Source: Paracyclopina nana
Taxonomy: Eukaryota; Arthropoda; Copepoda; Cyclopoida; Cyclopettidae
Direction: 5' to 3'
NCBI GenBank assembly: GCA_019096065.1
Contig: JAGUCH010000003.1
Location: forward strand, 3,100,001-3,164,000
DNA: 64,000 bases
Shown here piece after piece: positions 22,529 to 45,273 of this stretch. A program made the translations under genes and the position numbers. The notes beneath the pieces are model-generated. The model was not told the DNA's origin and did no database searches. It saw nothing but the letters and a program-made list of their open reading frames with translations. The first letter of the stretch is position 1, and each line of letters starts with the position of its first letter.

Positions 22529-22532
22529 CCTT

Positions 22533-23133
22533 TGAAGCGTGACATATAGTGGGGGCCCGATGAGCGCAGGCAGCGCGCAGGCAGCTTCATAGAGGACGAG
22601 AGCGAGGGAAGGCGCCGAGCAAGGAACGAGCCGGATCATCCAGGAGTCGCTTGTGGGACGCCATATCGCGATGTCCAATTAAGTTTTGCTGTACTTAGTG
22701 ATTGCAGACTTGAGACCTGGAGGGTCTAAGATAGCAATAAAAGCAGCCTATTGAATAACAAAACAGTGGTTTTTAGTGAACAAACTCCATCGAGAACTCA
22801 GCCTTTCAACCTGAGTTGTTCGCGTAGCGCTGACTTGAAGCCTCAGTTCATCCAGAGGCATCTCAATTCGGTAGTGATCCTACGGTGTGGGATATCTCGC
22901 CTCTCAAGAGTCTCGTCTCCGGAACTGGAGGTGCATAGACGCTATAGAGCCTTGAGGTCACAAGGGGCCGAGGAAGAGGCCGATCAGGACTGTCGTACCG
23001 GCCAGTCCACGAGGAGACCAGAGTGGTAGACTAGAGAGGTAGAGGCCCCTCGTCCCAAGGGGAAGCCGATCGAGCCTCAGAGTGCAGAATACGTATTTAG
23101 GCCTCTGAGGCCCCGACCATTCAACCCCTTTCA
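22533..23133 (+). repeat. 5' LTR
   Basis: 601 bp, starting TGAAGCGTGAC and ending CCCCTTTCA (TG...CA ends). An AATAAA poly(A) signal is at 22736. Compared with the 3' copy I see one difference near 22859 (a/c) and two near 23116-23117 (ac/gt). No TATAAA is obvious; a TCAGTT initiator-like motif lies near 22840. Confidence 0.95.
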
Positions 23134-23134
23134 A

Positions 23135-23152
23135 TGGTGCCGCGACCCGGGA
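23135..23152 (+). promoter_or_regulatory. Candidate tRNA primer-binding site
   Basis: TGGTGCCGCGACCCGGGA starts two bases inside the 5' LTR. TGG is the complement of a tRNA CCA end, and TGGTGCCG matches the 3' ends of animal tRNA-Phe and tRNA-His. The later bases agree partly with each, so the primer is not settled. Confidence 0.65.
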
Positions 23153-23819
23153 GTGACCTGACAGGCGGAAGGATGGGCCTGTCAGTAGACCTCTAGGGAG
23201 TCTTCTTTGTCAGACCAACTGGCTTTGCGGGGGCACGGGCGGTGCAAGTGCCTAACTCGCGGGTTGGCCGATCTCGTCTGTCTCATCCTGACAGAAGATC
23301 GCGAATAGTGTAAAGTCGGCCTTCGGTGAAGGCAAAAAGGACCACGTGCGCGAGGAGAAGGGCCCACAAGTGTGTATAAGACCCCATTTCTTGTCTCGGC
23401 GTGAGAGGAGTGCCGGGTACCTTCAGAGTCTTCGAGAGATATAAACCTTTGTAGCCCGGGCTCTGAAAATACATTAGTCAAGTGGTGCGTTTGACTGCGG
23501 GGGGATCCAGGATTCCTAGCTTACGCGACTCGAGCCACGCCCTCTGCGAAGAAAGTCGAGGTCGGAAGGATTGGACTAGACTTTGGACGCCCCGATCGGA
23601 GGAATCAGAAGAAAGCTCGATTTTGGGCGGAATTTACGACTCCGCACCTGCGAGCCGGACACTGGAGTGATCCCGAGAAGAAGGAGGGGACAAGACGTTT
23701 AGAAAAAAGAAAGCCGAACTCAGGACGAGTTCACGGGAATTGCCGCACAGTCAGGCGAAAGTCGCAGTAGACCGCCGCAAAATCCCAAAAGTTAAGAACT
23801 AAAATACAGTATATTTTGC

Positions 23820-24085
23820 TCTGCCCACTGCTAACGAAACGCTTTGCTTATTTCTAGCTCCACGAAAGAAATCAGGAGAGTTTACGAAAAACTCTCCCTG
23901 CTTCTCAAGTCCATACTTGAGATAACTTCTGCTCACTGCTCACTGCTAACGCAGCTTTTTCTGGTTTTTGCTATAAAAAACCTTCCCTCTCAAGCCCAGC
24001 CTTGAGAAGTGCCTTGCCCACGTTGCTTTTATTGGTTTTTGCTGTAAAAAACCATTTGTCCCACCTCAAGTCCAGACTTGAGACC
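23820..24085 (+). repeat. Three tandem units, each with two hairpins
   Basis: Each unit has a first stem (GGAGAGTTT/AAACTCTCC at 23875-23897; GGTTTTT/AAAAACC at 23963-23982 and at 24034-24053) and then a second stem built on CTCAAG/CTTGAG (23904-23921, 23989-24006, 24065-24082). In unit 1 the first stem has changed sequence on both sides and still pairs, which is covariation within one molecule and supports a real RNA structure. Confidence 0.75.
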
Positions 24086-25102
24086 TTTCACGCTTGACAA
24101 ATTCTACAGTGATTGACAATTAAATAAAACGACTTTTCTGCTCAAAATATTACGCAAAAGTATCACCAAATTTGCACATTTTGCGCGCTGAAAAAGAGAC
24201 CTTTTTCGCAGATTAAATCAGAGTAAAAAGAGACATCTTTTGAAAAATTCTAAGCTTCGCACTGCAACCCACTTTCAAAAGTTGCAGAGCCAAGTTCAGC
24301 CACATCAAAACTCTTTTTTTTTCACCAGATAAAACTAGTTTGCCTTCAACTCAAAACCCAAGCAAGACAAGCACCAATAAATAAACTAGAAGGGCCTATT
24401 ATCTTGCCAACTCACGCACACAATTTTGCAACCTTATTCACTACTCTCGAGCGTGGGCCGCAAGCTGTGTAGCCCCGAGTCATTTCAGCTCAGAAGAGAA
24501 AAACAGGTTTCTGCACAGCCAAATCTGGCCATCTACTCCAAGCATTCCTGCCTTATTTGGGACCCTTTTTCAAAAGAACCCATTATATTGCTATAATAAA
24601 CTTTACTCTTTACTCGATTTTACGCGCACCTTGCACGCAGAAAACGGGAACGTTTTGCTACTCAACTCGCAGAGATAATTTCAGCCTCCACACTTTTATA
24701 AGGAAAATAAAAAGTACTCTATTGAATTAAACTTTGATTCAGCTGCGACCTACTTTCAAAAGTTGCAGAGCCAAGTTTAACCACACAAAGAACCCTTTGT
24801 TACTTCAATCCAGCCATAAATTGTGAGGCCCAAAAATCTTTTCACACACAACTAGCGAAAACCGGTTCCACTCTAATCTTTTGCACACATCACGAAGTCA
24901 GCGAGACGGCCCAGCATAAAAAGTCTTGAAGGGCATTTTATCTAGCTGACTCACACCACAATTTGGCCAAGTACTCAGCTTCAAGCCATCATCATAAATC
25001 TTGCCTGAAGGTTTTAAAGGAGCAGCATAAAAACTGCACTTGCCAAACCACTTTGCTTACGTGTAACTCAGAACTGGAAATAAAATCTATCTGCCAACAA
25101 AT

Positions 25103-27484
25103 ATGGCTTCCAATGACATAACCGACATTCAAGACACTATGACCCGCGCACTTTATATCGCGAGAATTGCCAGCCATCTTGACCAAGATGAAGGCCAGGT
25201 TGACCGGGAAATTAATGCACTCACGATTCTAAAAGGACCCATCGAAAATGTCATGCCTCTGTGGACCAAACGCGCGCGTTTCCCCGAGGAGCTCCCTGAA
25301 ACACAATTGACCCAGCTACAGCTAATTGAAGCCTGGAACACAGCCCGAAGTGAGGAAAATGACATTTGGCCACGTGAAAAGTCCGCCTCGGTCTCCGAGC
25401 ACATTGTGACGATCATGTCAGGCCTGAGGGAGGGATCTGCCTTGATGCAACTTATGCAAGTCATACGCTACATCCTACACATAAAAAACTCTGGTATCGA
25501 CCCGATTGTTGTTCAAATCATCACGTATTTTCTTGGCCTTGAGGCCTTATCCGAGCTCATGGCCGTGAAAGAGAAGCTCACTGTAGTGGATAACATTCGA
25601 GCGGCCATCATAGCTGCGCTGCCAAATCCTCGCCAAAACATACTGCCTCTAGCTAAAGGAATCGAGATTGTTTCCATCATACTTGACCAGCAACAGATGC
25701 CTCAGAAAGATACTAATGTGCAACGAGAAGCCCAATTAGGAGGCATGAAAAAACCAGGAGTGTCTTTCGGGGACACGACAACGATTGGAGCCCGGGACCA
25801 CCTCTTGAGCACCCAAAATAATACGAGCCAAACTCAAATGCCCAGCTTTGATGCCAGCCGCTTCCACACCTCGGTAGATGAAAATACATTATCAGAGGTG
25901 CAAACTAAAGTTCTAGCAGGGGAAAATACGACCCCTGAGGAGCAGCGAATATTTTACAACCACTTACGCGATTTATATAACGATCAGATAGCGACTACAG
26001 CATTAAACGCACTGCGAGCCATCTACAGAAAATACGTAGGGAGTGACAAAAACGCGCACCGAGCAACGGAAATTAAAGCCAGGATTGAGGCCATTACCCG
26101 AGATGGAATAGCCCTGGCAGAAAGCCGGGTTCAGCACGAATCCTTTGAGGAACCTATATTTAATAGAATCAGCAGAATGGATATCTCTAACGTCAGCAAT
26201 CGTGAAACCGCTTTAGAAGCGGCCTCGCAGCTTGTCGACCCATCGACAAACGAGCGCGACAAGCAGAGAGAAATTTCAGCCACACTATTATTACTCACGA
26301 ATGAGCCCAACCTTACTAATCTGCAGAAAGCAGCTTTTCAAGAAGCCTTTGTTAAAAACAGTCAAATGCTTGCAGCCCCGTCCGGAATTAGCAGCGTAAC
26401 TTACTCACTCGAAAATAACGAGCTGTACGTGCAACCTCCCCCGTGCGGAGCAGTTGCTCATCCGGACGCTAAGACCATTAAATTGATCCGACAGTCTCTG
26501 TACACGACGAAATTCGATGCGAATTCCCCTGATAATCTGGACTCCTCGACGATGACCTTTTTCCGAGCGCTAGCCGACCAAGCATCTCTCAAGCAATGGT
26601 CCTGGAAGGCCACAATCGAAGCCTTATGCCTCATGTGCTCTCAAACCACGGTAGCAACGATACACACACTCATGATGGAAGGAGAGCAAGCCTTCCCCAC
26701 TGTCTGGTCCTATCTGCAATCATCGTCTCACACTAAGCCATCTTACCATGAAATCACACGAAAAATCAACAATTTGTATAACAACAACCAGCTCGGCTTC
26801 GGTCAAGTGATGGAGCGCTTTTTAACACTCCGCACTCACCAATATAAGGGAAGATCGCTAGGCCCAGGATCAGCTGTCGCAGCCACTCTCCTCGACGGTA
26901 AATCCTGGTTGGACAATTTCTATCCCAACGATGCCAACTTAATTGACGACCAATTTGAAAAACACTTGGCCAGCTCGGGCATTAAACCCAACAGCTCAGA
27001 AGCTTACCACGCATTAATTCGATTAGTACAAAAAATGATTGGGAACAGTCCTCCACGTGCCCAGAAAGAAAAAGAGAAGGATCATCGATTGCCTTTCATC
27101 ACAGGAGCCGAAAACCCCAAGCCTCGCGTTCATGCCATTGAAATCGAAGGATCTGACGCAGGATCACAGGCCGATCTACGCTCCGTAATACAGAAAATGA
27201 TTAAAGACGAAATTCAAATTGCCGCATTACAAGCCGTAAACGCTGGAGCAGCAGCTCAACCCGCTTCAAGCTCGAATGAGTTGAATCAATTCACCGACCC
27301 TGAAAAGACGGGAGCATGCTTACTCTGCAATCAAGCAGGCCACTTATTTAAAGTGTGCCGCGAATATCCGAATACGCCGCGCACACACTTTCGAAATGTA
27401 GGCCGCTGCAGCTTTTGCGGAGGCTACCACAGAGCCCTGGAAAATCTACTTTGCTGGAAAATCAAAAAAGAAGCATTAAAATGA
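25103..27484 (+). CDS. gag: Gag-like structural polyprotein
   Basis: 793 aa starting at the ATG at 25103 after a stop-rich leader. Mostly helical. Near the C-terminus is a CCHC zinc knuckle (CLLCNQAGHLFKVC, spacing C-2-C-4-H-4-C) followed by a second irregular one (CSFCGGYHRALENLLC). Expected role: particle assembly and RNA binding. It is much longer than the usual 300-500 aa gypsy Gag. Its TGA stop overlaps the ATG of pol as ATGA at 27481-27484. Confidence 0.9.
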   Translation: MASNDITDIQDTMTRALYIARIASHLDQDEGQVDREINALTILKGPIENVMPLWTKRARFPEELPETQLTQLQLIEAWNTARSEENDIWPREKSASVSEHIVTIMSGLREGSALMQLMQVIRYILHIKNSGIDPIVVQIITYFLGLEALSELMAVKEKLTVVDNIRAAIIAALPNPRQNILPLAKGIEIVSIILDQQQMPQKDTNVQREAQLGGMKKPGVSFGDTTTIGARDHLLSTQNNTSQTQMPSFDASRFHTSVDENTLSEVQTKVLAGENTTPEEQRIFYNHLRDLYNDQIATTALNALRAIYRKYVGSDKNAHRATEIKARIEAITRDGIALAESRVQHESFEEPIFNRISRMDISNVSNRETALEAASQLVDPSTNERDKQREISATLLLLTNEPNLTNLQKAAFQEAFVKNSQMLAAPSGISSVTYSLENNELYVQPPPCGAVAHPDAKTIKLIRQSLYTTKFDANSPDNLDSSTMTFFRALADQASLKQWSWKATIEALCLMCSQTTVATIHTLMMEGEQAFPTVWSYLQSSSHTKPSYHEITRKINNLYNNNQLGFGQVMERFLTLRTHQYKGRSLGPGSAVAATLLDGKSWLDNFYPNDANLIDDQFEKHLASSGIKPNSSEAYHALIRLVQKMIGNSPPRAQKEKEKDHRLPFITGAENPKPRVHAIEIEGSDAGSQADLRSVIQKMIKDEIQIAALQAVNAGAAAQPASSSNELNQFTDPEKTGACLLCNQAGHLFKVCREYPNTPRTHFRNVGRCSFCGGYHRALENLLCWKIKKEALK

Positions 27485-30400
27485 GCACCAACAATAAAGA
27501 TTTAATTACACCAAATGCCTCACCCGCAGAGCCTCAAAAGGAGGCTGACAAAACAAAAAACGCTGACGCAGACGAAACTAAGAGCTATAACTACGAGCTG
27601 CCCCCTTTCATGCAGGGACACTTTTCCCGAGAATGCGGAAAGGCAAGCTTTTCATTCTACAGAGCTCAATCTGAAGCAAAGAAACTTAAGGAAACAGGAG
27701 TAGCAGAAGTAGCCAAAGTGTCCACGAAAACTCAGACTGAGATCGAAAGTACTTGTCATTACTTCGACGACGAGCCTGCCGATATCATCGAAACTTGGGA
27801 TTCGGTCAGTAACCAGGGGAAACCTAAAATTGACAAGCCCGTAACAATAATCGAAAATAGCCCATTAGCCGACTCCAGCGAGGAGAAAACCTTACTAGAG
27901 CAAGGCAATGTATGGGACTATGCAATTTACTCCTCACTGGCCATACTAGGAGCCTCCTTGGCCACCCAAGCTGTAAGGAACCCTTTAATTACCAAAGCAG
28001 CCTCTACGGCCATCATCATCGCAGTCGCTGGTAAAACCGTAGCCGAATACGCTAAGAATAATTTAACCAACTTAACAAGATTACTAGGCCTAAATAAGGA
28101 AAGCAAGGAAAAAGAAGTAGCATGCCTGGAAATAACCAATCAGACCGTGCCCTGCGAAAGCAGCACTGCTGAGCTCAACAAAGCACCAATTCCCGAAACA
28201 AAACTTGAGATTTCCACCCCTGCTGATGCCCCAGTCTCGGCCACAGTCGTAGCCGAGACAGCTGAAGCAACAACCAATAATACAGTTGCAGCCGAAGATG
28301 ATGATATAATGACCGTAATTCAGTCCAAAATTAATTCAGTGCAGGCAGTAAACTTTAGCACACACGTAAAGAAATCCCTAGATGAAGTAGACGTCTGGGA
28401 CAACGAGGACATTCAAAGTTGTCATTCACTAGAGTTAAATGACCTAGCAGATCGCCCATTCATCCACGTACAGCTACCAGGCCCGGTTTTCATCAAAGCG
28501 ATGATCGACACAGGCTCGCAGAGCCAAATAATTTCGACAAAGCTCGTAGAAATCATTGAAAATAAATTAGGCTACAGCTTACCAAGAGTAGCCACTAGAC
28601 ACAAGCTAAAAGTATTTAACGGCGACTCGATACCATCTTCCGAAGCAGTAGTACTACAAATCCTACTAGGAGGAAAAATACTACTGAGAAAAGTCATGTT
28701 TTTAATAGCAGATGTAGAAACGATGCTACTGATAGGCAATTCACTTTTCGCGCATAACGATGTAAGACTGACTTGTAAAGGAAATACACAATACATAGAA
28801 TTAATTGGAAAAATGTCAAAATACGGTAAAATACCATTAGAATTATCATCGCAGGAGTTTTACCCAGTAATACTAACCCATTCTGTGGCATTAAGCCCAG
28901 GAGAAGAAATTACCACGTTAGCATACATCAAAGACGAAGCCCCCATACTGCCAGGCCTCGAGTACAACGAGGACACAGACTGGGAGGCCGACGAAGATGA
29001 TGAATCGATTATCAGCCATATATCCAAATTTGAAAACCAACCTATGCTCTTCGAAGCGGAAGAATTTTTAAAATCAGAATTAACGGATGGTGCAGTCACA
29101 AAAGCCGACCACAACGGAATGGTGGCCATCAACTTGAGAAACACATGCGAATTTCCCATACGACTTGACGGACAGCAGATAGTTGGTCATGTAAATCTAA
29201 TCGATTCGCACCGATTTAAAAAGACGGACAAAATAAATCGCATCAATCTGGGACTAAAAGCCATAGCTAGATATCCTTCCCAGTGTTATTGCCAGCCACA
29301 TGGAATAATCGCCCAATTTTCAGATGTTAATGGGCTCACACGTACTACGTTCAATGCCTTCAATAGAGCAAACCCACTAAAAGGCAAAAATAGACCTAAG
29401 ATTGTATACCGAGACATGCAGCTATTTTTAGCCAGCGACCAACAAGACTCATACGACCAACTTACGGACGAGTACCTGCAAAAATGGCTTTCGAAGAAAG
29501 AGATAACTCACATTCCATGCATATTCGTAATTCCCGTTGAGCAACACTTATCGGGAGAAATGAAGAGGATTCTTTGCACATGCAATCGATTATTCAACAA
29601 TTTTAAGCTTTTACATTTAAGACACAACCATTGTTGCCACCGACACCAAACACTAGCCACAGCCCCTATTACCTCCTTCCTAGCTGGATACGAATACACA
29701 GTTTTAACCATCTTCGCTGATGGCCTCGAATGCTTCAATTTCCAATACCAAAAGAACAAAGGAGAGGATTTCTATGACCTCGAAGTAATGGGCTCACGGC
29801 TGAGACTATACAAACTGGCCAACGATATTCATATCATCCTACACATCCGTCAAGAGGACGTGGAAGACATCGAATACACCACGGCCCTGATATACACTAT
29901 ATTGGGACAATTACGCTTCAAGCAAACAAGCGACTACATTTACGTACGGGCCGTGACCGAATGTCTAATAAACTTAAATGATAACCCTCTATTTTTAGCC
30001 AGCGCAGCAGCTCTCACCCTTCTTTCCGGGCTAAAATACTACCCCGAAGAAAGCACTTTTCAAGACCTCCGTACAGACTATAATATACACCACTTTGTCT
30101 ACATACCCGAAGGCTGCCGCTGCAACCTATGCCTAAAGAGAGAAAATGATCAACCAGTCACGGTCTGCGGAGTAAAGACAATCTTCGAGGGTCACCTGGA
30201 AGAGTACCACAACCGCCAGACGCTGATCAGAAAGACCTCAGAACTGGACTTAGTGAGCGCATCCCTAGACATAGCCGAACATACCGAGACGGAGAGACAG
30301 CTCTTTGAAGAAGTATATCAGCTTCTAATAAATCACCCTTCTAGCATAACAGAGAACACGATATTCAACGGGCTAGGCGGCTATTTCTTCGCCACCCCTG

Positions 30401-33400
30401 ATGAAGAGTTCGACAAGTTCGATCTGAGCCACATACCTGACAGCCACAGGGAGAAATTTAGATCCCTCATGAAATCATACAACGACTGTTTCACAAATGA
30501 CCCGCGCGCGTACAAATTATGGAACAGCCCTCCTATAGAGTTCGAAACAAAAGATAACGTAAAGGTCGTGGCCAAGGCCTATAATATGGGAAAACAGGAC
30601 GTCGCACTCTGTGACCGAAAAATAGGCCTTATGCTGGCCAGTGGCTTGATTGAGCCCGTAGATGCAAGCCTTAATAAATTCGGCTCGAGCCCCTGTTTCA
30701 TCCGCAATAGAAAAAACGATGAAGACACCCCTATGAAGCAGCGCAAAGTCAGATTACTATATGACCTCCAGGAGCTAAACAGCCACATTGTCTACCGTGA
30801 GACAGGCCATGTAATCCCACCAATACAAACACTTTTGCCGATGCTTAATAGGGCCTGTCTGCTAACCACAGTAGATTACGCCTCGGGTTTCGACCAGTGT
30901 AGATTAGCAGAAAGCTCAGCTGATTTATCTTGCTTATGCGTAACCTCCCCACGAAGTATATACAGAGGCCACCTTTTCAGGCCCAAGACCATCCCGATGG
31001 GACTAGCACTATCACCAGTAGTTTTCTCTACAATTGTGCAACAGTCCTTACATCCCGAAATACTCGACAGATGCACATGCTATGTAGACGATTTGTGCCT
31101 GGCACGGATCAAACACGAGCCCGCTCCCGCAGATGATAACGACTACGAATGCCATTTACGTGACTTCCAGCTCATGCTAGAAAGCATGCGCAACTTAAAT
31201 GCCCTACTTTCATTAAAGAAAAGCAAAGTGGCAGTAAAAGAAGTTGAAGTCTTAGGCCACATAATAAAGATAGCACAAAACGGACGAGTAACAATGGAAA
31301 TGCCACCGAAATACAGGGACGCATTTGACAATTACCCGCCACCAAAAACTAGAAAGCAACTGCAGCGCTTCGTAGGCCTCACAAATTGGCTCAGCCAATA
31401 CTGCCCCAGCCTGGGAGCCTACATAGCCCCGATATTAGATATTCTTGGCACCGACGATGGCCGAGCTGGAAAATTCACCCTCTCTCCATTCCAAGAAAAA
31501 TGCTTCAAAGCTATTGTCGAAGAAATAAAACTAGGCCTCACACTAGCACTACCCTCCTACGGAGAAACATATGTAATAGTTGACGCTGGAACGATAAGCT
31601 ATTCAGCACTACTAGCAGAAGTAGATTCTCAAGGCAAAATGGTTTGCCTCGGGGCCCACTCAGCCAGATTCCCTTTAGCCATTGTGCTAAATTACTGCTC
31701 ATTCACCAAAGAATGCGTGGGAGTGTTAGCAGCAGTCACACATTATAAGAAAATTCTCGATGCATGCACGCGAGTTATAATTATCACAGATTGCATGGCA
31801 ATAGCCTCTATCCTCTCGCACTCATTCACTACAAATAACTCGTTCATGACGCGCCTAGCATCACGATTATATGCTCTACCATACTCGTGGAGACTGAGAA
31901 CAGTCCCAAGAGACCAATTAGACGTGGTAGATGTACTACTAAATAAATTTAAATTCTCGACCGACGAAACAATGTTTTTCGCCCCCTATAGCAATTCATG
32001 CCAACTCACAAAAGACCTATACGCAGGCAAACTGGAACTGCCTGCCGAATTAAAGAATAAAGTTATAACCACGCAGGAGCTTCTCACACACATCTATAAT
32101 ACATTATTAAACAATGGCCTTCTTTCCAAACAGCTACTAGACAAACGCCTAGCATCGCTTCGCGATAAATGGACTGACTTGATAGGCCCATGCGATAACG
32201 AACCATGGGACGAAGACAGCCTGGTCATCGTCAAGGACGATCCACAAGGAGAACCCATTAAGCACAGCCACGAAGAGGAAATCAACCCTTACTCAGCCAT
32301 AAGCTACCTAGAAAATAACCCCGTAGTAGAAATACTCTCAGTAAAAAGAGCCCCCGAGCCGAGGCTACCGGGAATTACTCGCAATTTGCTCATTAAACTT
32401 CAGAGAAACTGCGAAGAAACGCAAACTATTGTAAAGCTACTACTCATCAGTGATAAAAAACACATCCCTCCGGAACTTTCGAGCCGCTTTAGAGTACTCG
32501 ACGCATCTATACTAGTGGCTCGCAAGAACCTAAAAAGGCCTTTTTCGCAGGCCAGCAATACGAAAATATATATGAGCACTCATAACACAGCGTATTTACT
32601 AGCATGTACTCACTTATTACACAACCACTTAGGTGCGAATAAAATGAATCTACTCTTTACACAATCCATGTACGGCACTTACAGTGCAAGAATTGCACGC
32701 ATTATATCCTCAGCATGCATCCACTGTAGCCTAAACAAACAATCAAACACCCGGTTCATAGGGAAAAGCCGTTTCCCCTTACCGAAAGCCCCTTTTGACA
32801 TGGTCTCCATAGATTTAGCATTCTTCGACGAAACACTGATAACAGGCAGAAATGCCACAGTGGCTTTTATAATGGTAGACATGTTCAGTAAGCTTCTTAT
32901 AGTCAAGCCTCTCACAGATGCCAAATTCAAACAAATATCAACAGCCATGGAAGAGATATTCTCCACATATGGCACCCCAAAGCACATAATTGCTGACAAC
33001 GGAGGTAACCTTACTCGAAATCTAGCCATGCAGGAATTAATAAATAAGTATAGCGTAGAGACCGTAGGACTACTATTCACTACTCCCCATAAGCATACAA
33101 ATAGTTATGCAGAAAGTAATATACGCCTATTACGAAAAGCTCTACTGCAGAATCTGCAATGCTATAATAAAAAGCAGAGCGAAGTACTAAAATACACAGT
33201 GTTCGCCCTCAACAACCGACCGTTAACCTTTTACAAATATGTTGATGAAAAAGGTCACACCATCATCCCTACACCGTTCAGCCTATTTTTTGACCGAAAG
33301 CCAGTTTTCGACATTGGACATGACATTTATGACATTCTGTCGGAAACAGAAAAATTAGTACAGAAGAAACAATGGGCCGAAATAATACAAGAATATGATG

Positions 33401-33600: not shown

Positions 33601-33651
33601 CAAGTAGGCCTAGACCAAATTAAAATATATCGCTTTCACGAGTTATACTCC

Positions 33652-35088: not shown

Positions 35089-35169
35089 CCCTCAGGCGCC
35101 AGGCGTACCGTCCCTTCTTAGCCACCCGCGCACCACTGCTCCTCAGTACACTCGCTTAAGCCTTGAAAA

Positions 35170-35802
35170 ATGGAGCTTAACGCATGCAACCTACTAGCTT
35201 GGGAACCGGAGAAGAAACATCTAGCACTTGAATTGATAAGACAATACTGGGTGGGAATTTGCTCCACATCGCCCACACATCAAGAACAGGAAATTCTACA
35301 TGAGCTCTATGAGTTCGGAGTACACCAACACGCGAAAAGGGTTGGTAGACACAAAGCCTTTGTGCAGGCCACATATGACCTCCTGAGGCCTTCCCCATGG
35401 CATTCCTTAGTATCACGAGAAACGATATCTTCCCACGACACCTCAAGCTTGTACAACTTCGACGAGCTAATTGGGCTTACCGACGGCTTTATAAGAAAAA
35501 ATAAAGGAATAGCCTACGAGCAGGCACTAAGTGAACATTACCTCAGAAACCGTCACTATCCAGAACATTTCAGGGACGAACACCTGCGCCCTACACCAAT
35601 GCCTCTAGACGCGTTATACGAGAGCCTAATTGGCCTAATGGCCTGCCGATGGAGACTACACCACAGAGGCAACCCAGAAATGGATCACGAGAAATTGGTG
35701 GCCATTCCAGAGCAATTCTTAGAGGACCACTGCCAGAAATACTGCGAAACAGACAAGCTTCGAATTAAATCAATTTTGGCCCTCTCAAACAGTGAAACCT
35801 AA
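35170..35802 (+). CDS. DUF5662/HD-like accessory protein, copy 1
   Basis: 210 aa from ATG 35170. A histidine-rich core fits the DUF5662 pattern: HKAFV (about residue 59), SSHDTSS (about 86), FDELIGLT, then HYLRNRHYPEHF (about 119-130). That family occurs in large DNA viruses, phages and some cellular genomes and looks like a divergent HD phosphohydrolase; activity not established. An AATAAA near 35848 follows. It is paralogous to the next gene, 218 bp downstream. Family assignment is from memory of the pattern, not a search. Confidence 0.7.
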   Translation: MELNACNLLAWEPEKKHLALELIRQYWVGICSTSPTHQEQEILHELYEFGVHQHAKRVGRHKAFVQATYDLLRPSPWHSLVSRETISSHDTSSLYNFDELIGLTDGFIRKNKGIAYEQALSEHYLRNRHYPEHFRDEHLRPTPMPLDALYESLIGLMACRWRLHHRGNPEMDHEKLVAIPEQFLEDHCQKYCETDKLRIKSILALSNSET

Positions 35803-36020
35803 CATAGCCCTGTCAAATGAGGCCAAAGAACACGAAATTGCCAAGAAAAATAAAAGCCCTACATGTATCGTCAGGACAAATAAACTAATATAGCCTTTCT
35901 CATAAAACTTTCATTAAATTTATTTCATAATGCATAACACTTTTCGACCAGACAGCAGACAGTCTACTCATCACATTCTCTCGCTGCTACAGGAAACTTC
36001 GCAGTCTCTTCGCGTTCACT

Positions 36021-36653
36021 ATGGAGCCTACAGCACAAAAATTAATTATCAGAACTCCCGAATGGAAAAATACAGCTATACGGCTCATGAAGAAACATTG
36101 GATAGACAAACAACCAATTCCACCCCCAATTGGGATGACGAACCTTATGGACCGCGCCATGTTACACGAGCTGGCACGATTCGGCATCGACCAGTACGTA
36201 CAGCAAGTATGCACGCACAAAGCCTTTGTGATCAGAACTTACGAGCGCTTCATTCGCCCACCGTGGGAAAACGTAATCTCGCGAGACGAGATCGCAGCCT
36301 ACGACAACTCCTCATTGTACGAATTCGACGAGTTGGTTGGCCTGACCGAAGGCATTATTCATGGCCATAAAGGAGCAGCCTACAACAGGGCCATCAGGCA
36401 TCATTATTTGCGTAACCAGCACCACCCAGAACACTACGTCGACGGAAATGGCCAACCCTCTCCTATGCCATTTGCACCCCTCCTAGCAAGCGCCTTAGGT
36501 CTGATTGCCACACGCTGGGAGAAACAGCTACAGGGCGACCCACAAATCGACGACAAAACCTTGTTAATGATTGAGCCCCAAACATTGGACAATTACCATG
36601 AGCTTGACAAGATGCGAATTATGGGAATTACGTCTCTATTTAGGACACAATAA
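36021..36653 (+). CDS. DUF5662/HD-like accessory protein, copy 2
   Basis: 210 aa from ATG 36021, collinear with copy 1 over its length: HKAFV, SSLYEFDELVGLTEG, HYLRNQHHPEHY and PMPFAPL are shared. The first His of the HD pair is replaced by Tyr (YDNSS), so if the fold is metal-binding this copy may have lost or changed activity. The exact equal length and shared motifs indicate tandem duplication within the element followed by divergence. Confidence 0.7.
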   Translation: MEPTAQKLIIRTPEWKNTAIRLMKKHWIDKQPIPPPIGMTNLMDRAMLHELARFGIDQYVQQVCTHKAFVIRTYERFIRPPWENVISRDEIAAYDNSSLYEFDELVGLTEGIIHGHKGAAYNRAIRHHYLRNQHHPEHYVDGNGQPSPMPFAPLLASALGLIATRWEKQLQGDPQIDDKTLLMIEPQTLDNYHELDKMRIMGITSLFRTQ

Positions 36654-36758
36654 GCTAGAACCAACAATAGTAAATATGTATAATATATATATATAGAAAA
36701 TACAGCGCACTCTCGCACTCTAGTGCGTTATATAACCCCCAAATATTGCCTCAAATTC

Positions 36759-36840
36759 GGTTAGGGTGACCAGGTCACCATAACCTTTCACAACCTCCAT
36801 AAATAGTCACACACATCACACCAAATCTGGTTAGGGTGAT
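36759..36840 (+). repeat. Two internal copies of the PPT-like motif GGTTAGGGTGA
   Basis: GGTTAGGGTGAC at 36759-36770 and GGTTAGGGTGAT at 36829-36840 repeat the 12 bases that lie directly before the 3' LTR (44570-44581); preceding bases (CAAAT/AAATT) are also similar. The first copy is the left arm of a near-perfect palindrome, 36759-36785, with 13-base arms and one mismatch. Confidence 0.65.
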
Positions 36841-37090
36841 GTCCGTGACACCAGTGCGTAAAACGGAAGCCAAAAATAAGACAAAATTTTTTTTTGCCAC
36901 CCACCTTTTCCGAAGGGGGGGGAATGCGAGGCATACACACACGGATAGATCAATACGCTTTTTTGCATCAAATACGGTGTTTTATTTAGCAGATCTCAAA
37001 ACCTTAATTATGACACCCAAAAACAACTTTACTTCAGTCACATAAAACCAGATACAGCCGGCTGAATCACCCAACTGAGAGTTCAACAAC

Positions 37091-37127
37091 TATAAAAGGT
37101 TAAGCTCAATCAGCAAAGCCCTCATTC
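37091..37127 (+). promoter_or_regulatory. TATA + initiator core promoter
   Basis: TATAAAAGG starts at 37091 and TCATTC is at 37122-37127, placing the predicted +1 A at 37124, 33 bp from the TATA start. The downstream transcript is unclear; a basic 143-codon frame starts at ATG 37428 but overlaps antisense exons. Confidence 0.5.
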
Positions 37128-37311
37128 AGCATAAAAAGCAACCAGCGGAAGGACCGCATTGAGCGCTCTCTCAACGGAGCTATCACGGATCAATCATAGC
37201 CAGAGGAAATCGCTCATCAGTTGCCTCAGTTGAGTCTACCACATCAGCCTCGGAATCTTCAGAAATACGAAAGCGCAGCCCAGCGTGCTCAGCAGTTGGC
37301 CTTTTACAGAA

Positions 37312-38639
37312 ACCCTATCGGTGTACAAGACACCGGCCACCTGACAAAAAGAGAAAAATAAAACCTTCAAATTAGCACCGCACTGCAAACGAGACTCACC
37401 AGATTCACGCGCCCGCGCTTGCAACCAATGCCAAGCCTCCCAAAGGCACAGTTTTCCAAGGGGAACAAATATCATTTCGCAGCACGAGCCAAGACCAACC
37501 AGGTATACGCCTATCAGGAAACTTGTCCACGATGCGGCGGCGCCTCCAAGGGGAACAAAAATCATTTCGCTACACGAGCCGGGCCCATCCAGCCAACCGC
37601 ATTGGCCCCTCCCACTGGCCTCGGCCTCGCCCATTGGCCTGACCCCTCGAACATGCCGGACCACGCCTTCACAGAGAAGGCGGGGCCGCCCTCGAAGACC
37701 AAGGCGTCCCCACAGCACATTGACAAGTACAGGCCACAGCTATCGAACCAAACGCAGAGAGGCAAGCGACACGCCCAGTCCCGCCCATCGTCAGCGTGCC
37801 CCGCCCTCTCACCACGTCGGCCACCACGCCCTCGCCACGAAGATGGAATAGCAGGATAACTATAACGGCGATTTTTAAAAAACCACACTCTGTAACGAAA
37901 AAGAAAAAATATAACCCGTACTAATCACTTTGGTATAACAAAAATACTTACTTGACTTCCACTGAGGCCATTCAATGACTCGCCCATGCGAGAAGAAGCT
38001 CGAGCTCGGCCACTCCCACGTCTTGCGCTCGGCCACGCCCAGGACCTGACAATGACAAAGTCACACGCGAGCTCCGCCCGCCTGATCACCATGAGGATTA
38101 TTATAACAGCGATTTTTATAAAATCACATCCTGCAATAAAATCAAAATAAAAGTTATATATGCGCGATACTTCCGAAAAGAGATTACTTACTAGACTTCT
38201 ATAGAGTCATCGATGACCCGCTCCTCGAGTCCCAGGATTCGGACGACGAACCGGGATCCCCGGGGCAAGTCATGCGGCTCCAAGTAAAGCTGACTCACCA
38301 CCGGGAATAAAAACCGCGGTCGCCTCCGAAAAACCCACACGAGGAACGGCAACCCGAGGTATATTCGGCATACCAGCCCAGCCGCTACCGTAATTAAGAG
38401 GCTGACACAGCCCCAAAAAGCGGCCTAATCAAAGCCCTGGATAACAGAGCTACCTCAATTAAAAAAGTAAACAAAAATTGCAAAATTCCACTCACACTTT
38501 CTGGAGCCGCGACAGCCACGGCCGGCGCCACTGACGTCGAGGTCAGCCCAGTTCCACTATAAAACTGCAAATCCGGAAAAGTCAAGCCATAAAGCCACGA
38601 ATTCCCGAACAATTTTACCTCTCGCACTATAAAAGACAT
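37312..38639 (-). CDS. Antisense spliced unit with duplicated exons (candidate)
   Basis: A first small gene is consistent: ATG 38639, exon 38639-38496, GTGAGT donor, acceptor at 38454, exon 38453-38394, 67 aa and hydrophobic. Further down the strand are strong donors near 38297, 38190, 37951 and 37395, and pyrimidine-rich acceptors at 38131, 37890 and 37333. The exon starts at 38130 and 37889 are homologous (shared (I/L)KIAVI(I/V)IL, transmembrane-like), as are the donor regions before them, so a segment of about 240 bp was duplicated. A repeated SC(S/C)EMIFVPLG follows. Exon phases for the whole unit are not solved. TTTATT at 36981 is a likely antisense poly(A) signal. Confidence 0.45.
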
Positions 38640-38960
38640 TTCAGTCGCCTCAAGCAAAAATCACAAGTCCAAATAGAGCTACCAGACCAAAGTCAGCTAA
38701 AGTCCCCGTTCGCAATGCGCAAAAGCCAAAATGAACTTAGAACGCGTCAACTATGACATCTGGTACCTCTGCTAGACAACGCGACCATCTATTAGGACTC
38801 AGAAAAAGGCCAAACTTGCCCCGGAAACGCCGAAACTGCGAGCTACAATATCAAACGAAAGCAAGCAACCACCAAGTGAAATGCAATCGCCATGATTTAT
38901 TAAACAAGTAAAATTAGAAAACCATGAACAAATAACTATACATGCAATGTGAGGCTATAA

Positions 38961-40049
38961 TTACGAAGCGGCCGCGCCATCGTCATGAATTTCTACAAGA
39001 ACCTCAGCCTCGGTGGCATCACCAGCATTGTTACTAGCGCTCTTGATGGCTCCAAGTGCAACATCAACTTGTCTACCCAAATCATCAAGGATCACACGCT
39101 GGGCCACCGTGCAAAGTGCCCCGTTGACCTTATCATGCAGCGCCTGATGCGCTGCCCGATTGCGAGCCTCTATACCCGCAATTAGCCCCTCCACACTTGG
39201 ACCCGCTACACTCGGGCGTAGCCCACCAGCCGCCGCCACGGTGCCACCAACAGCTTTTTGGCCCGTTTTAGCCGCTGATCCACGCTTCTTACGGCCACTT
39301 CTACTCGCATCATCAGACGAATCCTCCTGCTTCTCGGCCGACAGAACTTGAACAGTGCTTGTTCCTCCCCCTCCAACGACCACCTGCTGGAGTTCGACAT
39401 CATAAGTCACAGGCTCACTCGGGGGAAAACGACGGTGGTATCGGTTCAAACACCAATTGTCGAGGCGACGATACCCCCAGATGCAGCCCCAGGCCAATGC
39501 CGACAAAATAATCTGCAACAAAAAAGGCCGAGCATAAGATTGAGCCCTCAAAAAGGAAGTCAACTAGAACTTACTATGATCCACACACCAAAGGAAATGG
39601 TGCCGAAAATGCCAAGCAAATCCACACTTTCGGGTCCAGCCGGCTCGCCCTTGGGAGCACCCGGGCAACCAGGTGCGGCCTCCGATGAAAATGCAAATCG
39701 CGGAGCAGCTGTGGTGAATTGGGCCACCGCTGTAGTCACTTTATCCACTATTTCACTGACTGGCAAATCCTATCAAGCATAAATATAAGCATACAGAATT
39801 ACTATTAGATTAAAAAATTTGCATTACTGGAAAGTACAAGTCGACCACCTCGCCCAAATTGAACGACCGCAGTGATTGGAGCACAGCCGATAATTTGGTG
39901 CAGGGAAAGGCAGTCCAAAACTGCTCTGCATAATATCGGTCTGCCTCAAATTCCTCCCGGCCCAAAGAGAGCTCATAAAGCAGCCGACCAAAGTAATGTC
40001 TTACCTCAGTACTGCCCGCCTCTTTAGCAGACGGGAGAACGAAACTCAT
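38961..40049 (-). CDS. Antisense three-exon membrane protein gene
   Basis: Exons 40049-39828, 39769-39575 and 39512-38961 have lengths of 222, 195 and 552 bases, all phase 0, giving 322 aa without stops; introns are 58 and 62 bp with GTAATG and GTAAGT donors and AG acceptors. A single transmembrane helix spans the second splice join (LLGIFGTISFGVWII then IILSALAW), followed by a basic stop-transfer end. The C-terminal tail is Ala/Gly-rich with a GRKKRG cluster. A TTTATT (AATAAA on this strand) is at 38896. I recognise no family. It runs opposite to gag-pol inside the element, a position reminiscent of antisense genes of some retroviruses. Confidence 0.75.
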
Positions 40050-40854
40050 GTCTCGTATATATGTGCGTACAGGAGCAATACCTCGAGCTTAATGAGAAAT
40101 AATCACCTTTCTTCCTGGCAGCCACAGATCGCGCCCCAGATCATCTCCCCCCGCGAAAGACATCGCGCATGCAATATCAAATCAGCAATAAATCAGGGAC
40201 ATCATAAACGCCCCCTTTTAAAAAGCGGTAGAGAGAAAAATACAAACCGGTTTTCGCATCTTGAAAACGAGACTATGCAACTGCAAGTCGAGCTCACTCC
40301 CCGCAGCGAGGTCACATTTCCTCAACACAGCTTTAAACACTCATCGCGCCATAAATCATGCTGACGTCAGCATTTAGCTCGAGCACTGATCTCGCCACAG
40401 ATGAGTGATGAGGGGAAAAAATGAATGCAAAAATTAACTAAAATATTAAGATATAAAAATGCACAATGGGTTCAGGCACCCTGAAAACGAGTGAATGGCC
40501 CGCTCATAACGCTTCGTCTAAATTCCGAATTCCCACTGCTCGAAACGAGACAAGAAACAAGACCATAAATCTTAGAGATGAACACTTACTACATTAAAAT
40601 TGCGAGAAAGAAACATAAAGCAGGGGGACGAAGTCAAAATTCCCCATGGCCATAATGCATGAGGAGTTATAACACATTACTTGAGTAAAACTCAGGACCG
40701 CTCAATCGTCATCATTATTCTTGCTTGTACAGTCTTACCAGAAAAGAGGGCTTAGCCCCAGGACAAAAACCCACGCTTTAAAAATAACCGGTTCTCGAGT
40801 GCTCAACCCTTTGTGACCACAAGGTCACACAGAAATGGGCCAGCCAGAGATGCA
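40050..40854. other. Non-coding spacer inside the element
   Basis: Contains the presumed antisense promoter near 40050-40150 and AT-rich spacer. A palindromic TGTGACC/GGTCACA pair at 40811-40827 resembles the GGTCA-type repeats at 36759 and 44514-44560. No gene seen. Confidence 0.4.
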
Positions 40855-40891
40855 GATAAATACAGCTTGCAAAAATGAGAAGGATTCATTC
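40855..40891 (+). promoter_or_regulatory. TATA-like + initiator core promoter for the spliced accessory gene
   Basis: GATAAATA at 40855-40862 and TCATTC at 40886-40891; predicted +1 A at 40888, 32 bp from the TATA-like box and 61 bp before the accessory start codon. Confidence 0.5.
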
Positions 40892-40948
40892 CCCTCGCAA
40901 CCAGCATTGCAGCCAGCACTACGACTACGTTAAGCCCCACGAAACAAA

Positions 40949-42177
40949 ATGAGCCAAGATAACCAAGCCGAGACCCCCAGGGTCCCTCTAGGCCCCATGG
41001 AAGTCGACCGTAGCGACACTCAGGAAACTCCAGCTCATCCCAACAATGAACGTGAGGTCGACTACGACACACCCGCAGAACCTGAGCGGCCCACCCTGGA
41101 AAAATGGGCACGCGATCTCGACTACTACTACAGCTTAGAGGAGCTAACCGCGCACCACACTCCTGAGCGCTTTATCGAGGGCCTAATAGCAATAGAAAAA
41201 GCCCGACAACCAGTGCAAAGCCCATTTATTCGCCAATTGAACTTATTAAAAGGTACACTAAAAAGTAACTCTCTTTTATTAACTTGTCAAGCTCATTGAC
41301 ACATTATAAATCAGGTCCCAGGCCAGAAGTTCAGTGGGGCATGCAACTGGAAGCCTGGCCCATGAAAAATGGCGAGCGATATGAGCCATCCTCTTTTCGC
41401 CAACCAATACGCATCCGTAACTTAGCAAGGTTGACCTTCGAGATCCGCCCCGGAGCAGCTGAAAGCGACGAGATTCCACGAGTAGCCCTAGTTCTTCTGG
41501 GCGGAGAAGAGGCTAACCCATACCCACTGTACAACACAACGGGCACCGCACTTGAGATCCAAGACATGTGTCCAGTACTGAGTCCCACACTGGGCTCCCA
41601 CTATAAGGTGGCCACCATCGGAAACGAAGGCTTGCCCGGTGTCTTCGTAGAAGCACCGGTGCGCAACCGAAAAGTCGACGTTTTGATTAAACTCGACGAG
41701 TCTTACGTAGAGCCCTCCTTATACATCGACCCGTCCACCATTGCAGTCCAGATCCTGGTGATCTCGCCGGAGTATCTGGCCAACGGCCTGCTTAGTTTTG
41801 GAAGCTTCTTCCCACTCAAAGTAGACATGCGCTACCAAGCCTGCCCGGAGGTCCAATCCTTCATCGCTCAGCTTGAAGAGGAGAATCCCCGCATGGTGCG
41901 CTACTTGCAAGGATGTTTCACCCTGCAGGAGCGTAAAGCCCTACAACAACGCCAGCGAGAATATAAGGAACGTGAGAATAGAGAACGGATCACTTCACCA
42001 CCGACAAGTTACGCAGCCGCTGCTAGAGCCAGTCATCGCCCAGCGCCCTCCAGAAGACCAGAGAGGACCGAGCCCTCGACCCAAATCGAGCGGGAAATCG
42101 CGTCCGCGCTTGAGCAGCTCGAGCCCAATAAAAGAGAACGCCTAAAAAGGGAGCTGCTCAGCATGGTGAAAAAATAA
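40949..42177 (+). CDS. Spliced accessory protein, unknown function
   Basis: Exons 40949-41252 and 41315-42177, 388 aa. The 62-bp intron (AAAAG|GTACAC ... AAATCAG|GTCCC) restores the frame exactly. The N-terminus is acidic and proline-rich (about 1-60); the middle (about 110-280) is a compact mixed domain; the C-terminus is highly charged, with a predicted coiled coil ending ELLSMVKK. No signal peptide, so probably internal or a structural/regulatory protein. It has its own TATA/Inr pair upstream and AATAAA overlapping the stop. No family recognised. Confidence 0.75.
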
Positions 42178-42399
42178 ACCGATGACCTCACTCCACCATT
42201 GAAACTTACCGAAACGACCCCGGACCTCTGCGAGAACAGGATTGCACAATTGCCTTGTACATAATTGTCAACAAAAATTCCCATAACATTTTTGAATCGA
42301 TGCTTACTAACCACAGAACTGGCGCCAGCATGAATGAAATAAAAATACTTGCATACCACACAAATGCGCGAGTTCTTCCCAGACGCGCGCCCGACCAAC

Positions 42400-42520
42400 A
42401 AATGCATCCCAAAGATGCACTTTTACAGCACAAATTCGCACGCTCGGGACCAGAAAAATGCAGCCTAAAAATGCACTTTTGCAGTATAAATTAGAGGCCC
42501 CTTGTAAATTGCACTCAGTT
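42400..42520 (+). promoter_or_regulatory. Env promoter with a duplicated upstream box, TATA and initiator
   Basis: A block of about 38 bp (AAATGCATCCCAAAGATGCA...) at 42400-42437 is repeated at 42456-42493. The second copy ends in TATAAA (42485-42490); the first has CACAAA there. TCAGTT lies at 42515-42520, putting +1 at 42517, 32 bp from TATA and 29 bp before the env start codon. The spacing and Inr match arthropod core promoters. Confidence 0.65.
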
Positions 42521-42545
42521 CAACAAGACCAACGTTAAATGCAAC

Positions 42546-44324
42546 ATGAAAGTGTTCATTCACGCAACCGCTTACTTAATATTAGCACTTGCTGACATCT
42601 CTGCGCCCGCATTTATTCACGAATATGGGCAAGTGCCGGAGAATTCGATTTGCATGAACAACTTCGCACTTAGGCCGTACCGTCGACTATATCATGTGCA
42701 AGAAGAAGCTGAAATGACAGTGCTGGACCTTGAGCCTTACGCACAAGCGCTAACCAATGTCAGGGCCGAAACGAAAGACTCGTTAGTGAAAATACGCCGC
42801 CACCCTCAAGATTTAAGCGTCCCCCGATTCCTGATGGACTACAACAATAAAATAGTAGCCCTGACCAATGGAGACGTGAAAGATTTGGACAAATTGTGTA
42901 ACGAAAGGATCCCCGGCTTCGAGGGATTCGAACCCGAGTCAAACGAAGAAATGTCCGAATTTCTACGTAAGGCATTAATCCTACGGTCTGGCTCGGGAAA
43001 TAAACACACGTTTAATATGAAGATCGACGTGGTCTTTAAATCCATTGTGACCCTCGATAAAAAACTGGTATTCGAAAACATGGAAGGAGCAGAGCCCAGT
43101 GGCACCTACGTCGAGGGCTTTCCTACACTCACAGTTGAAACAGAGCCACAATTTCCCAGCAAAATCAAGAAAATGACCGTGTTTCCACCCGTCACCGCAG
43201 TGCAAGACGCAGTCTGCCAGCGCAAATATCCTGCCTTGATAAACGACAAAAGCGCCTTCAACAAGTTCACCAACACAGTAGACTCATACCTGAGAAAAAT
43301 GGAAAGCGCCATCAAAGTCTTAGGCGAGTTAGCGCTCTCCGGATCAGCCCGCGAGTTTGCGACAAACATGATTAGAAAAGCCAAGAAAGCAACATTACCT
43401 GCCGCTCTCCGGCAGGCAGTACAAACCATAGAAAAAATCTCCAGAATAGTAAAAGTAGGTGGCATCGATAGCGAAGAACTTAACACCTTCATGGGAGGCC
43501 TCAAGCTAGTAGCCCAGTTCAGCAAAGCCATAAGAAGATTAAAGAATGTATATCGCTTTCCATACGCGAACGAAGCAACCGAGGAACTCGATGAAATCAG
43601 ATACGTGGGGATTGCCAACACTATCGAGGCCAACGACTACGTAATCCGAGGGGTAATGCGTCAAGACTCGCGAGATCCTGATCCGGAAACAGCTTACCTC
43701 ATAATTAGCAGAAGCCTGGACGGCAAGATTCTAAGGCCCAAATACTTAACACAGTACAAGAAGAAGGCCTACGTGACGAACGAGTTGCCTAACTACACCG
43801 ATTGCTACGAGGAGGAAGACGGGACCATCGTGTGCGAGCCCAACGAGTATCAGCCTACTCCCCAGGAGACACTATGCGCACACAGCCTGTTAGGAAAGGC
43901 AATAGATGACCCATTCGAAGTGTGTGAGCTCCAGCAACTAGGCGATAACACGCTCACACCCGTGGACTGCGACTTATACACAGGAATTGCAAACGTGGTC
44001 AAGGAAACTACCCTCAACCGCACTTGTGCAGAGGACGACACGCAAAAACTCATCCTGGAGCCCGGATCTTATCAAATCAAGTCGAACTGCCAACTGGAGC
44101 TGAATGATCAAACCATCGGCGTGCCAGAAATGGCCAAGGAGTCAGACATCGCACAATACATACACAAACTGCCGGAGAAGACCTGGCTCAATATTTTCAC
44201 TCGATGGGAAGTATATACCACCGTGGCATGCCTCTCAGGAGCCATCGGACTAATACTGGCCTGCATAATCTGGAGAAAACGACATCAATGCTGTAAAACG
44301 CGGCCTACACGACCAACGAGATGA
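42546..44324 (+). CDS. env: Envelope-like transmembrane glycoprotein
   Basis: 592 aa from ATG 42546. An N-terminal signal peptide (about residues 1-20), a large ectodomain with dispersed cysteines and N-glycosylation sites (NYTD, NRTC), a transmembrane helix near residues 558-580 (CLSGAIGLILACIIW) and a short basic tail with two Cys. Layout and position before the 3' LTR are those of Env in errantivirus-like elements. I see no clear fusion peptide or cleavage site, and cannot assign it to a known Env class. No frame breaks. Confidence 0.8.
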   Translation: MKVFIHATAYLILALADISAPAFIHEYGQVPENSICMNNFALRPYRRLYHVQEEAEMTVLDLEPYAQALTNVRAETKDSLVKIRRHPQDLSVPRFLMDYNNKIVALTNGDVKDLDKLCNERIPGFEGFEPESNEEMSEFLRKALILRSGSGNKHTFNMKIDVVFKSIVTLDKKLVFENMEGAEPSGTYVEGFPTLTVETEPQFPSKIKKMTVFPPVTAVQDAVCQRKYPALINDKSAFNKFTNTVDSYLRKMESAIKVLGELALSGSAREFATNMIRKAKKATLPAALRQAVQTIEKISRIVKVGGIDSEELNTFMGGLKLVAQFSKAIRRLKNVYRFPYANEATEELDEIRYVGIANTIEANDYVIRGVMRQDSRDPDPETAYLIISRSLDGKILRPKYLTQYKKKAYVTNELPNYTDCYEEEDGTIVCEPNEYQPTPQETLCAHSLLGKAIDDPFEVCELQQLGDNTLTPVDCDLYTGIANVVKETTLNRTCAEDDTQKLILEPGSYQIKSNCQLELNDQTIGVPEMAKESDIAQYIHKLPEKTWLNIFTRWEVYTTVACLSGAIGLILACIIWRKRHQCCKTRPTRPTR

Positions 44325-44569
44325 AGGGGCTCACGCGACACCGAAGAGACGCGATCACTGCAAACGCGACAACGATATAGCGATAAATTGGCCAACAATT
44401 TAACTCCACTCACCACATACCCCTCAACTTCTAGACTAGAATAAATACTGCAACTAACTTCTCATCAGGGAACATCCCCCACGTCCTGTGGCCGCCCTTT
44501 CTTTTATTTTTTAGGTTAGTGACCTCGTCATCCAAGGTCACACTGGACTTGGCCTCCGAGGTCAAAATT

Positions 44570-44581
44570 GGTTAGGGTGAT
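44570..44581 (+). promoter_or_regulatory. Polypurine-tract-like sequence before the 3' LTR
   Basis: GGTTAGGGTGAT abuts the 3' LTR where the plus-strand primer is made in LTR elements. It is purine-rich rather than purely purine. The repeats at 36759 and 36829 support it being a selected motif. Confidence 0.5.
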
Positions 44582-45182
44582 TGAAGCGTGACATATAGTG
44601 GGGGCCCGATGAGCGCAGGCAGCGCGCAGGCAGCTTCATAGAGGACGAGAGCGAGGGAAGGCGCCGAGCAAGGAACGAGCCGGATCATCCAGGAGTCGCT
44701 TGTGGGACGCCATATCGCGATGTCCAATTAAGTTTTGCTGTACTTAGTGATTGCAGACTTGAGACCTGGAGGGTCTAAGATAGCAATAAAAGCAGCCTAT
44801 TGAATAACAAAACAGTGGTTTTTAGTGAACAAACTCCATCGAGAACTCAGCCTTTCAACCTGAGTTGTTCGCGTAGCGCTGACTTGAAGCCTCAGTTCAT
44901 CCAGAGGCCTCTCAATTCGGTAGTGATCCTACGGTGTGGGATATCTCGCCTCTCAAGAGTCTCGTCTCCGGAACTGGAGGTGCATAGACGCTATAGAGCC
45001 TTGAGGTCACAAGGGGCCGAGGAAGAGGCCGATCAGGACTGTCGTACCGGCCAGTCCACGAGGAGACCAGAGTGGTAGACTAGAGAGGTAGAGGCCCCTC
45101 GTCCCAAGGGGAAGCCGATCGAGCCTCAGAGTGCAGAATACGTATTTAGGCCTCTGAGGCCCCGGTCATTCAACCCCTTTCA
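44582..45182 (+). repeat. 3' LTR
   Basis: 601 bp, same ends as the 5' copy, AATAAA at 44785. Followed by CCTT, the same four bases that precede the 5' LTR. Confidence 0.95.
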
Positions 45183-45273
45183 CCTTTCGCCCCTTATCAA
45201 AAGTGCTTGTCCAATATGTTTCACTCCATCGCATAATTAAGCGTGCTTATGGTGCAAAGCCATTTTGGTATAT

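Follow-up and report, generated by a model that had tools for sequence, protein, structure and literature searches.

The closest described systems are found among the long terminal repeat (LTR) retroelements of animals. Burro elements, the giant gypsy-like elements of planarians, have internal regions of more than 20 kb that include homology to env and further domains that are not retroviral; their first open reading frame (ORF1) encodes a polyprotein of 4,873 aa, in which the env homology is placed in frame after gag and before pol, along with apoptosis/ubiquitin domains (PMC6431247). In the TelKA/Juno/Vesta elements of bdelloids, additional ORFs encode a GDSL esterase, a DEDDy exonuclease or a paramyxovirus-like env (PMC5408684). 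The env of errantiviruses is baculovirus-like, and Troyka, an animal LTR lineage that is divergent and close to gypsy, is characterised by CG...CG ends and target-site duplications (TSDs) of 3 bp (both from PMC12440569). The element described here occupies positions 22533–45182 (22.65 kb) of a 64,000-nucleotide stretch of the genome of the copepod Paracyclopina nana (assembly GCA_019096065.1, contig JAGUCH010000003.1, positions 3,100,001 to 3,164,000), hereafter the window. It is very probably an endogenous copy of a divergent, giant Ty3-like LTR retroelement with the anatomy of a retrovirus, representing one family within a clade of about 80 copies. The strongest new points are a selected C-terminal tail of pol, an intron-bearing gene upstream of env (the pre-env gene) whose relatives occur in other families too, and a pair of genes belonging to the Pfam family DUF5662. 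It follows that Ty3-like elements of 19–23 kb can retain several selected accessory genes in a compact genome of 92 Mb.

Like Burro, the window element is gypsy-like, has LTRs around more than 20 kb of internal sequence, and carries an env and an extra non-retroviral domain (PMC6431247); however, its gag, pol and env and its accessory genes each occupy a frame of their own with env downstream, its LTRs are 0.6 kb long and its extra domain is DUF5662. Membership of Burro was rejected on the position of env, which is a separate ORF after pol. With TelKA/Juno/Vesta it shares the gain of enzymatic or env ORFs 3' of pol in an LTR element (PMC5408684), but these extras are a doubled DUF5662 gene and an env without a recognised relative. 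The layout of LTR, gag, pol and env in an arthropod is common to insect endogenous retroviruses and errantiviruses (PMC12992720). When env proteins of three families, one from each, were scanned against Pfam, none matched a baculovirus F-like env of the errantivirus kind. Errantiviruses are also much shorter than the window element. Troyka is likewise divergent and close to gypsy (PMC12440569), but membership was rejected, since the window element has TG...CA ends and a 4-bp TSD where Troyka has CG...CG and 3 bp. Among the top-ranked results from the literature collection searched, there was no recognised description of an element with this make-up, nor any paper with the word DUF5662.

The LTRs, primer site, leader, genes, intron and spacer given below lie on the + strand. 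The original prediction had placed the element at these limits, with 601-bp LTRs, three LTR differences and a CCTT duplication, and alignment of the LTR pair bore this out. The 5' LTR (22533–23133, beginning TGAAGCG and ending TTTCA) and its 3' partner (44582–45182) are 601 bp each, have TG...CA ends and differ by three mismatches in pairwise alignment; the aligned stretch is 602 bp because one shared flanking T is included. CCTT is found at 22529–22532 on the 5' side and at 45183–45186 on the 3' side. A primer binding site (PBS) at 23135–23152 matches the 3' end of tRNA-Phe(GAA). The 15-base core of this site occurred at 46 places in the genome, element copies counted (26 forward, 20 reverse), and at none when reversed as a control; tRNA-Phe genes were identified at all five core loci scanned from these 46, all on contig C1 and two of them overlapping. 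LTRs, TSD and tRNA-Phe primer site together identify a reverse-transcribed insertion. The window copy and three others, whose flanks were inspected by eye, had 4-bp TSDs (CCTT, GGTG, TCTA and CTCA) and TG...CA ends, as is typical of Ty3/gypsy elements (Metaviridae; TG...CA LTRs, TSD of 4–6 bp). An untranslated leader of approximately 2 kb (23153–25102) contains two copies of a 59-bp motif that are 81% alike. Nothing in 22000–46000 reached the gathering score in Rfam. Over 24001–44000 the element is A-rich and G-poor on its sense strand (AT skew 0.13–0.26, GC skew -0.09 to -0.18), a skew that most of the flanking sequence does not share.

The gag gene (25103–27484, 793 aa) has two zinc-knuckle-like motifs near its C-terminus, at residues 739 and 769. 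It is followed by pol (27481–33600), which probably starts at an ATG overlapping the gag stop and encodes, in order, a protease (DTG), a long segment, reverse transcriptase (RT; YVDD), RNase H and integrase (HHCC, DNG). This is the order characteristic of Ty3/gypsy elements, as indicated by Pfam, a match to a solved structure and the succession of motifs. Pfam identified RVT_1 and RT_RNaseH, with the protease below cut-off at E = 0.003; integrase had no Pfam match in the window pol, nor was there any at E ≤ 1 for the 569 residues before RT or the 521 that follow RT and RNase H. These 521 residues do match Ty3 integrase by sequence, and 7q5b (Ty3) was the only solved structure recovered with integrase (E = 5.3e-5). 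With RT, the best structure was 4ol8 (E = 4.5e-17), which we take to be Ty3, followed by the named Ty3 entry 7q5b (E = 2e-16); other retroviral entries gave E = 2.5e-11 or weaker. Matches to RT in the protein database were distant (27, at 21–26% identity), and RT had no pattern match in viral contigs. In an RT tree of 28 rows, from which reference retroviruses were absent, the window RT had an end branch of 3.8 changes per column and no firm place; the element is therefore described as Ty3-like in its parts and their order rather than by its place in the tree.

The gag and pol frames overlap by ATGA (27481–27484). This junction was compared over 301 bases in two of the six sibling copies, one of which was unchanged. 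The other had four changes in the overlap, of which three fell at the third position of gag codons and none at that of pol codons; of its six changes after the pol ATG, five were at pol third positions. Though few in number, these changes are more in keeping with reinitiation at the pol ATG than with a frameshift.

The window copy itself was predicted to be apparently intact, with complete gag, pol and env. All three ORFs are present, gag among them and env in the form of an env-like frame, but pol is incomplete, being closed by an in-frame stop at 33598–33600 that is absent from all six other full-length copies. The sibling frame runs 2578 codons from stop to stop in five of these six, and 1902 in the sixth. 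Overall, pol is open in five of seven copies, env in six and both in four. Without this selected C-terminal tail on its pol, the window copy is likely to be defective.

The genome assembly comprises 92 Mb in 10 contigs. A search with the LTR returned 31 matches, of which 14 formed seven pairs, with starts 22.05–22.26 kb apart, on five contigs; the remainder were one solitary match on contig C9 at 96% and 16 older matches at 69–84%. In the four copies measured, LTR pairs differed at 3/602, 1/600, 1/600 and 0/600 aligned bases, which upholds the earlier description of the element as young. Since LTR pairs were nearly identical while copies differed from one another by 0.4–6% over 9.3 kb from the end of pol to env, most of this divergence would predate insertion; the measured insertions are young, and their lineages were already diverging beforehand. 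Many copies are available for comparison, those measured being young.

Beyond the window element's own family, RT identified at least 76 rows at 42–56% identity (83 scored of 415 candidates), 66 of them at 50–53% and those at 54–56% being partial. At least one element accounted for two rows (C3:2800113 with C3:2800784), and decay was evident in others (a row on C10 had 12 stops); there are therefore fewer intact elements than rows. Some 75 further elements share the pol tail, pre-env gene and env. The tail, for which 89 of 152 candidates were scored, gave at least 106 rows overall, many elements contributing two, and the pre-env gene 75 further rows in other families at 23–27% identity. One relative on C6 has LTRs without a difference over 615 aligned bases and a total length of 18.9 kb. 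The span from RT to env, which is 13.9 kb in the window element, was 14.9 kb in one further relative and 16.6 kb in another, so that total lengths of 23–25 kb are expected for these. Four other-family pieces were inspected on the sense strand between pol tail and pre-env gene; three had no ORF of 110 codons or more, and the fourth (L041) had three of 124–129 codons. One pol tail and one pre-env protein from other families matched nothing in Pfam at E ≤ 1. With about 80 copies genome-wide, these giant elements form a large group that has been active recently. In line with the original remark that no element with this set was known, the gene set is unusual; the element is also no single oddity, given several families of the clade in the same genome. 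Their common plan makes it testable which extra genes are core and which were gained.

The region between pol and env had been read as genes rather than junk, with at least five further coding units. To evaluate each ORF, pN/pS was calculated from all 21 pairs of the seven copies; these pairs are not independent, and no significance is given for that reason. Values were low for the pol C-terminal tail (33601–35088, a frame open for 495 codons that is one with pol in siblings; pN/pS = 0.06 over 33652–35085), for DUF5662 genes a and b (0.25 and 0.20) and for the frames of both pre-env exons, part of the intron included (exon 1, 0.16 over 40949–41299; exon 2, 0.06 over 41269–42174). Three control frames in the spacer gave 0.57, 0.66 and 0.96. 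Selection thus acted on the tail, on each DUF5662 gene and on the pre-env gene during replication of the copies. Eight other ORF frames had values of 0.36–0.84 and were disrupted in some copies by frameshifting indels or by stops; of the ORFs within 36.65–40.9 kb, all had such indels and most had stops, and they were rejected as chance ORFs, as were antisense ORFs at 38.96 and 42.03 kb. The least clear case was the ORF at 39279–39779, where pN/pS was 0.36, below the controls, but frameshifting indels affected four of seven copies and stops two; it is unlikely to be a gene. The stretch 36654–40933 is therefore treated as spacer without clear coding selection. Coding sequence makes up approximately 3.9 kb of the 8945 bases from the pol stop to env and the spacer approximately 4.3 kb, so that less than half of the extra length is genes. 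Of the five or more units predicted, selection is clear for the tail, which is continuous with pol in siblings, two DUF5662 genes and one two-exon gene. The broader prediction, of a young gypsy-like element of great length that bears env and additional genes, was supported. The A-rich, G-poor skew extends across the spacer too.

The pre-env gene consists of exon 1 (40949–41252), a GT-AG intron of 62 bp (41253–41314) and exon 2 (41315–42177), amounting by arithmetic to 388 aa. The 62 bases, with their GT start and AG end, are present in six of seven copies. In the seventh, on C3 (L035), precisely these bases are gone and the frame continues uninterrupted for 393 codons; because the loss is exact, the simplest reading of the aligned copies is that a spliced RNA was reverse-transcribed. 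Synonymous difference in the pre-env gene (0.06–0.07 over 40949–42174) was about half that of the pol tail and DUF5662 gene a (0.13–0.14 over 33652–35799), which could reflect recombination or a second constraint there.

The env-like gene (42546–44324, 592 aa) has 14 cysteines and a membrane-anchor window near residues 555–578, and its start is signal-peptide-like by eye, albeit below the hydropathy cut. Its position, anchor and cysteines fit a fusion glycoprotein; there is no R-X-[KR]-R motif. Searches of proteins (word-based, with 8000 candidates scored, such that distant relatives may be missed), Pfam, PDB and NCBIfam returned no relative beyond chance-level scores, and four pattern matches in viral contigs yielded none confirmed. 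This want of a known homologue would suit an element that is a retrotransposon only, moving within the germ line, its env-like and extra genes being passengers without a role in spread. The distribution of copies over five contigs of one genome also fits intragenomic movement, and the pol of the window copy is broken. Yet env is open in six of seven copies and is kept at 28–34% identity in at least 64 further rows from other families (74 of 118 candidates scored), ten of its 14 cysteines align across the three families compared, and purifying selection acts on the pre-env gene and the DUF5662 pair. A retrotransposon alone was accordingly considered the less likely explanation, though the most credible of the alternatives.

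The two DUF5662 genes, a (35170–35802) and b (36021–36653), each encode 210 aa and are tandem paralogues, b being 42% identical to a. Both belong to the Pfam family (PF18907), scoring 39.5 and 37.1 bits against a curated cut-off of 27. There were 16 DUF5662 matches in the genome, of which 15 were element copies and one an apparent host gene; apart from the latter, the family was found only in the lineage of the window element, and none of 14 control genomes had a match. The structure model of gene a was helical (pLDDT 91.7) and its first five structure matches were HD-domain proteins, a comparison informative only for families among the listed structures. HD-domain metal phosphohydrolases have a signature of H...HD...H...D residues. 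The HD doublet was present in all 16 aligned bacterial or viral loci, the apparent host gene and all three proteins from public contigs, and the first H in 14 of the 16 bacterial or viral rows. Among element copies, gene a had the doublet in five of seven (HG in two) and gene b in none (YD in all seven). The late Asp190 was present in all 18 rows of one DUF5662 alignment. On the predicted structure, DUF5662 looks HD-domain-like. In an older relative on C7 (L039, G000:C7:5685600-5695500) the pol tail was 84% and DUF5662 gene a 70% identical; between the DUF5662 gene and the 3' part are long ORFs that by eye resemble a second gypsy-type pol, then an ORF of 594 codons, and an LTR piece in opposite orientation adjoins.

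Relatives of DUF5662 were also identified at seven bacterial and 12 IMG/VR loci, by scans that required a short shared pattern and may have missed others, which raises the question of derivation from a bacterium or phage rather than from an animal gene. This origin seems improbable. The element proteins share 25–31% identity with the apparent host protein as well as with the three public-contig proteins. When element gene a was used as the confirming sequence, none of 151 viral and none of 91 genome stretches passed; the same stretches confirmed with P0032, a DUF5662 relative, yielded the 12 viral and seven genome loci. Trp160 and Asp190 are common to the element, host and two public proteins, but occur in none of 16 bacterial or viral rows as aligned, the alignment being uncertain there. 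P0032 had no match in phage and plasmid records, and a PHROGs search produced weak matches only (best E = 0.0055, function unknown). The DUF5662 tree was unrooted and contained no bacterial row. The pair and its apparent host relative in one genome make a good case for gene capture and divergence.

Least credible is a composite, in which the whole 33.6–42.5 kb block was inserted later into an ordinary gypsy element: the DUF5662 pair, being in one lineage only, does look like a lineage-specific gain, but later insertion was rejected for everything else, since the copies lacking the block with clean junctions that would have betrayed it were sought and all seven full-length copies hold it, so that it is not a one-copy insertion, and the pol tail, pre-env gene and env are common to other families.

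For a Ty3-like retroelement with retrovirus anatomy, the gene arrangement suggests that a full RNA would give Gag and Pol, the latter through restart at the ATGA overlap, and that spliced RNAs would be the source of both DUF5662 proteins, of the pre-env protein of 388 aa and of the env-like glycoprotein. Spread between cells may be, or have been, conferred by env. The DUF5662 pair probably arose through a single capture of an HD-like hydrolase gene, a cell-type enzyme, followed by tandem duplication. Because positions kept in relatives have changed, the copies may in part be binding rather than catalytic proteins; their likely target would be a nucleotide important for reverse transcription or host defence. 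These functions of the extra genes are inferred. A more ambitious reading, offered tentatively and thought doubtful, is that the clade represents a lineage of family rank, not yet described, made up of reverse-transcribing viruses that have large genomes and infect small arthropod-like animals, with a captured and doubled HD-type hydrolase that works on or binds nucleotide signals. Its members would, on the same speculative footing, range from approximately 19 to perhaps 25 kb and combine a long pol that has its own C-terminal protein, a spliced pre-env gene and an unrecognised env. Equally conjectural are the hydrolase targets in such a lineage, for instance cyclic dinucleotides that serve in host defence, or the pool of dNTPs.

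The ORFs flanking the element are animal-like (Nup192 family, ATG16/WD40, LRR-TIR, patatin-like, RING/RAWUL and OPA1-like). Among six contig-end pieces (L053–L058), three had TTAGG-type repeats, two had CTGGC/CAGGC pentamers (one end each of C1 and C2) and one had neither; on this evidence, too, the host is taken to be an arthropod. Within the window, 55776–61910 contains several related-looking tandem arrays with units of 9, 17 and 25 bp (GCGCGACAT..., TACTAAAAT), in both orientations.

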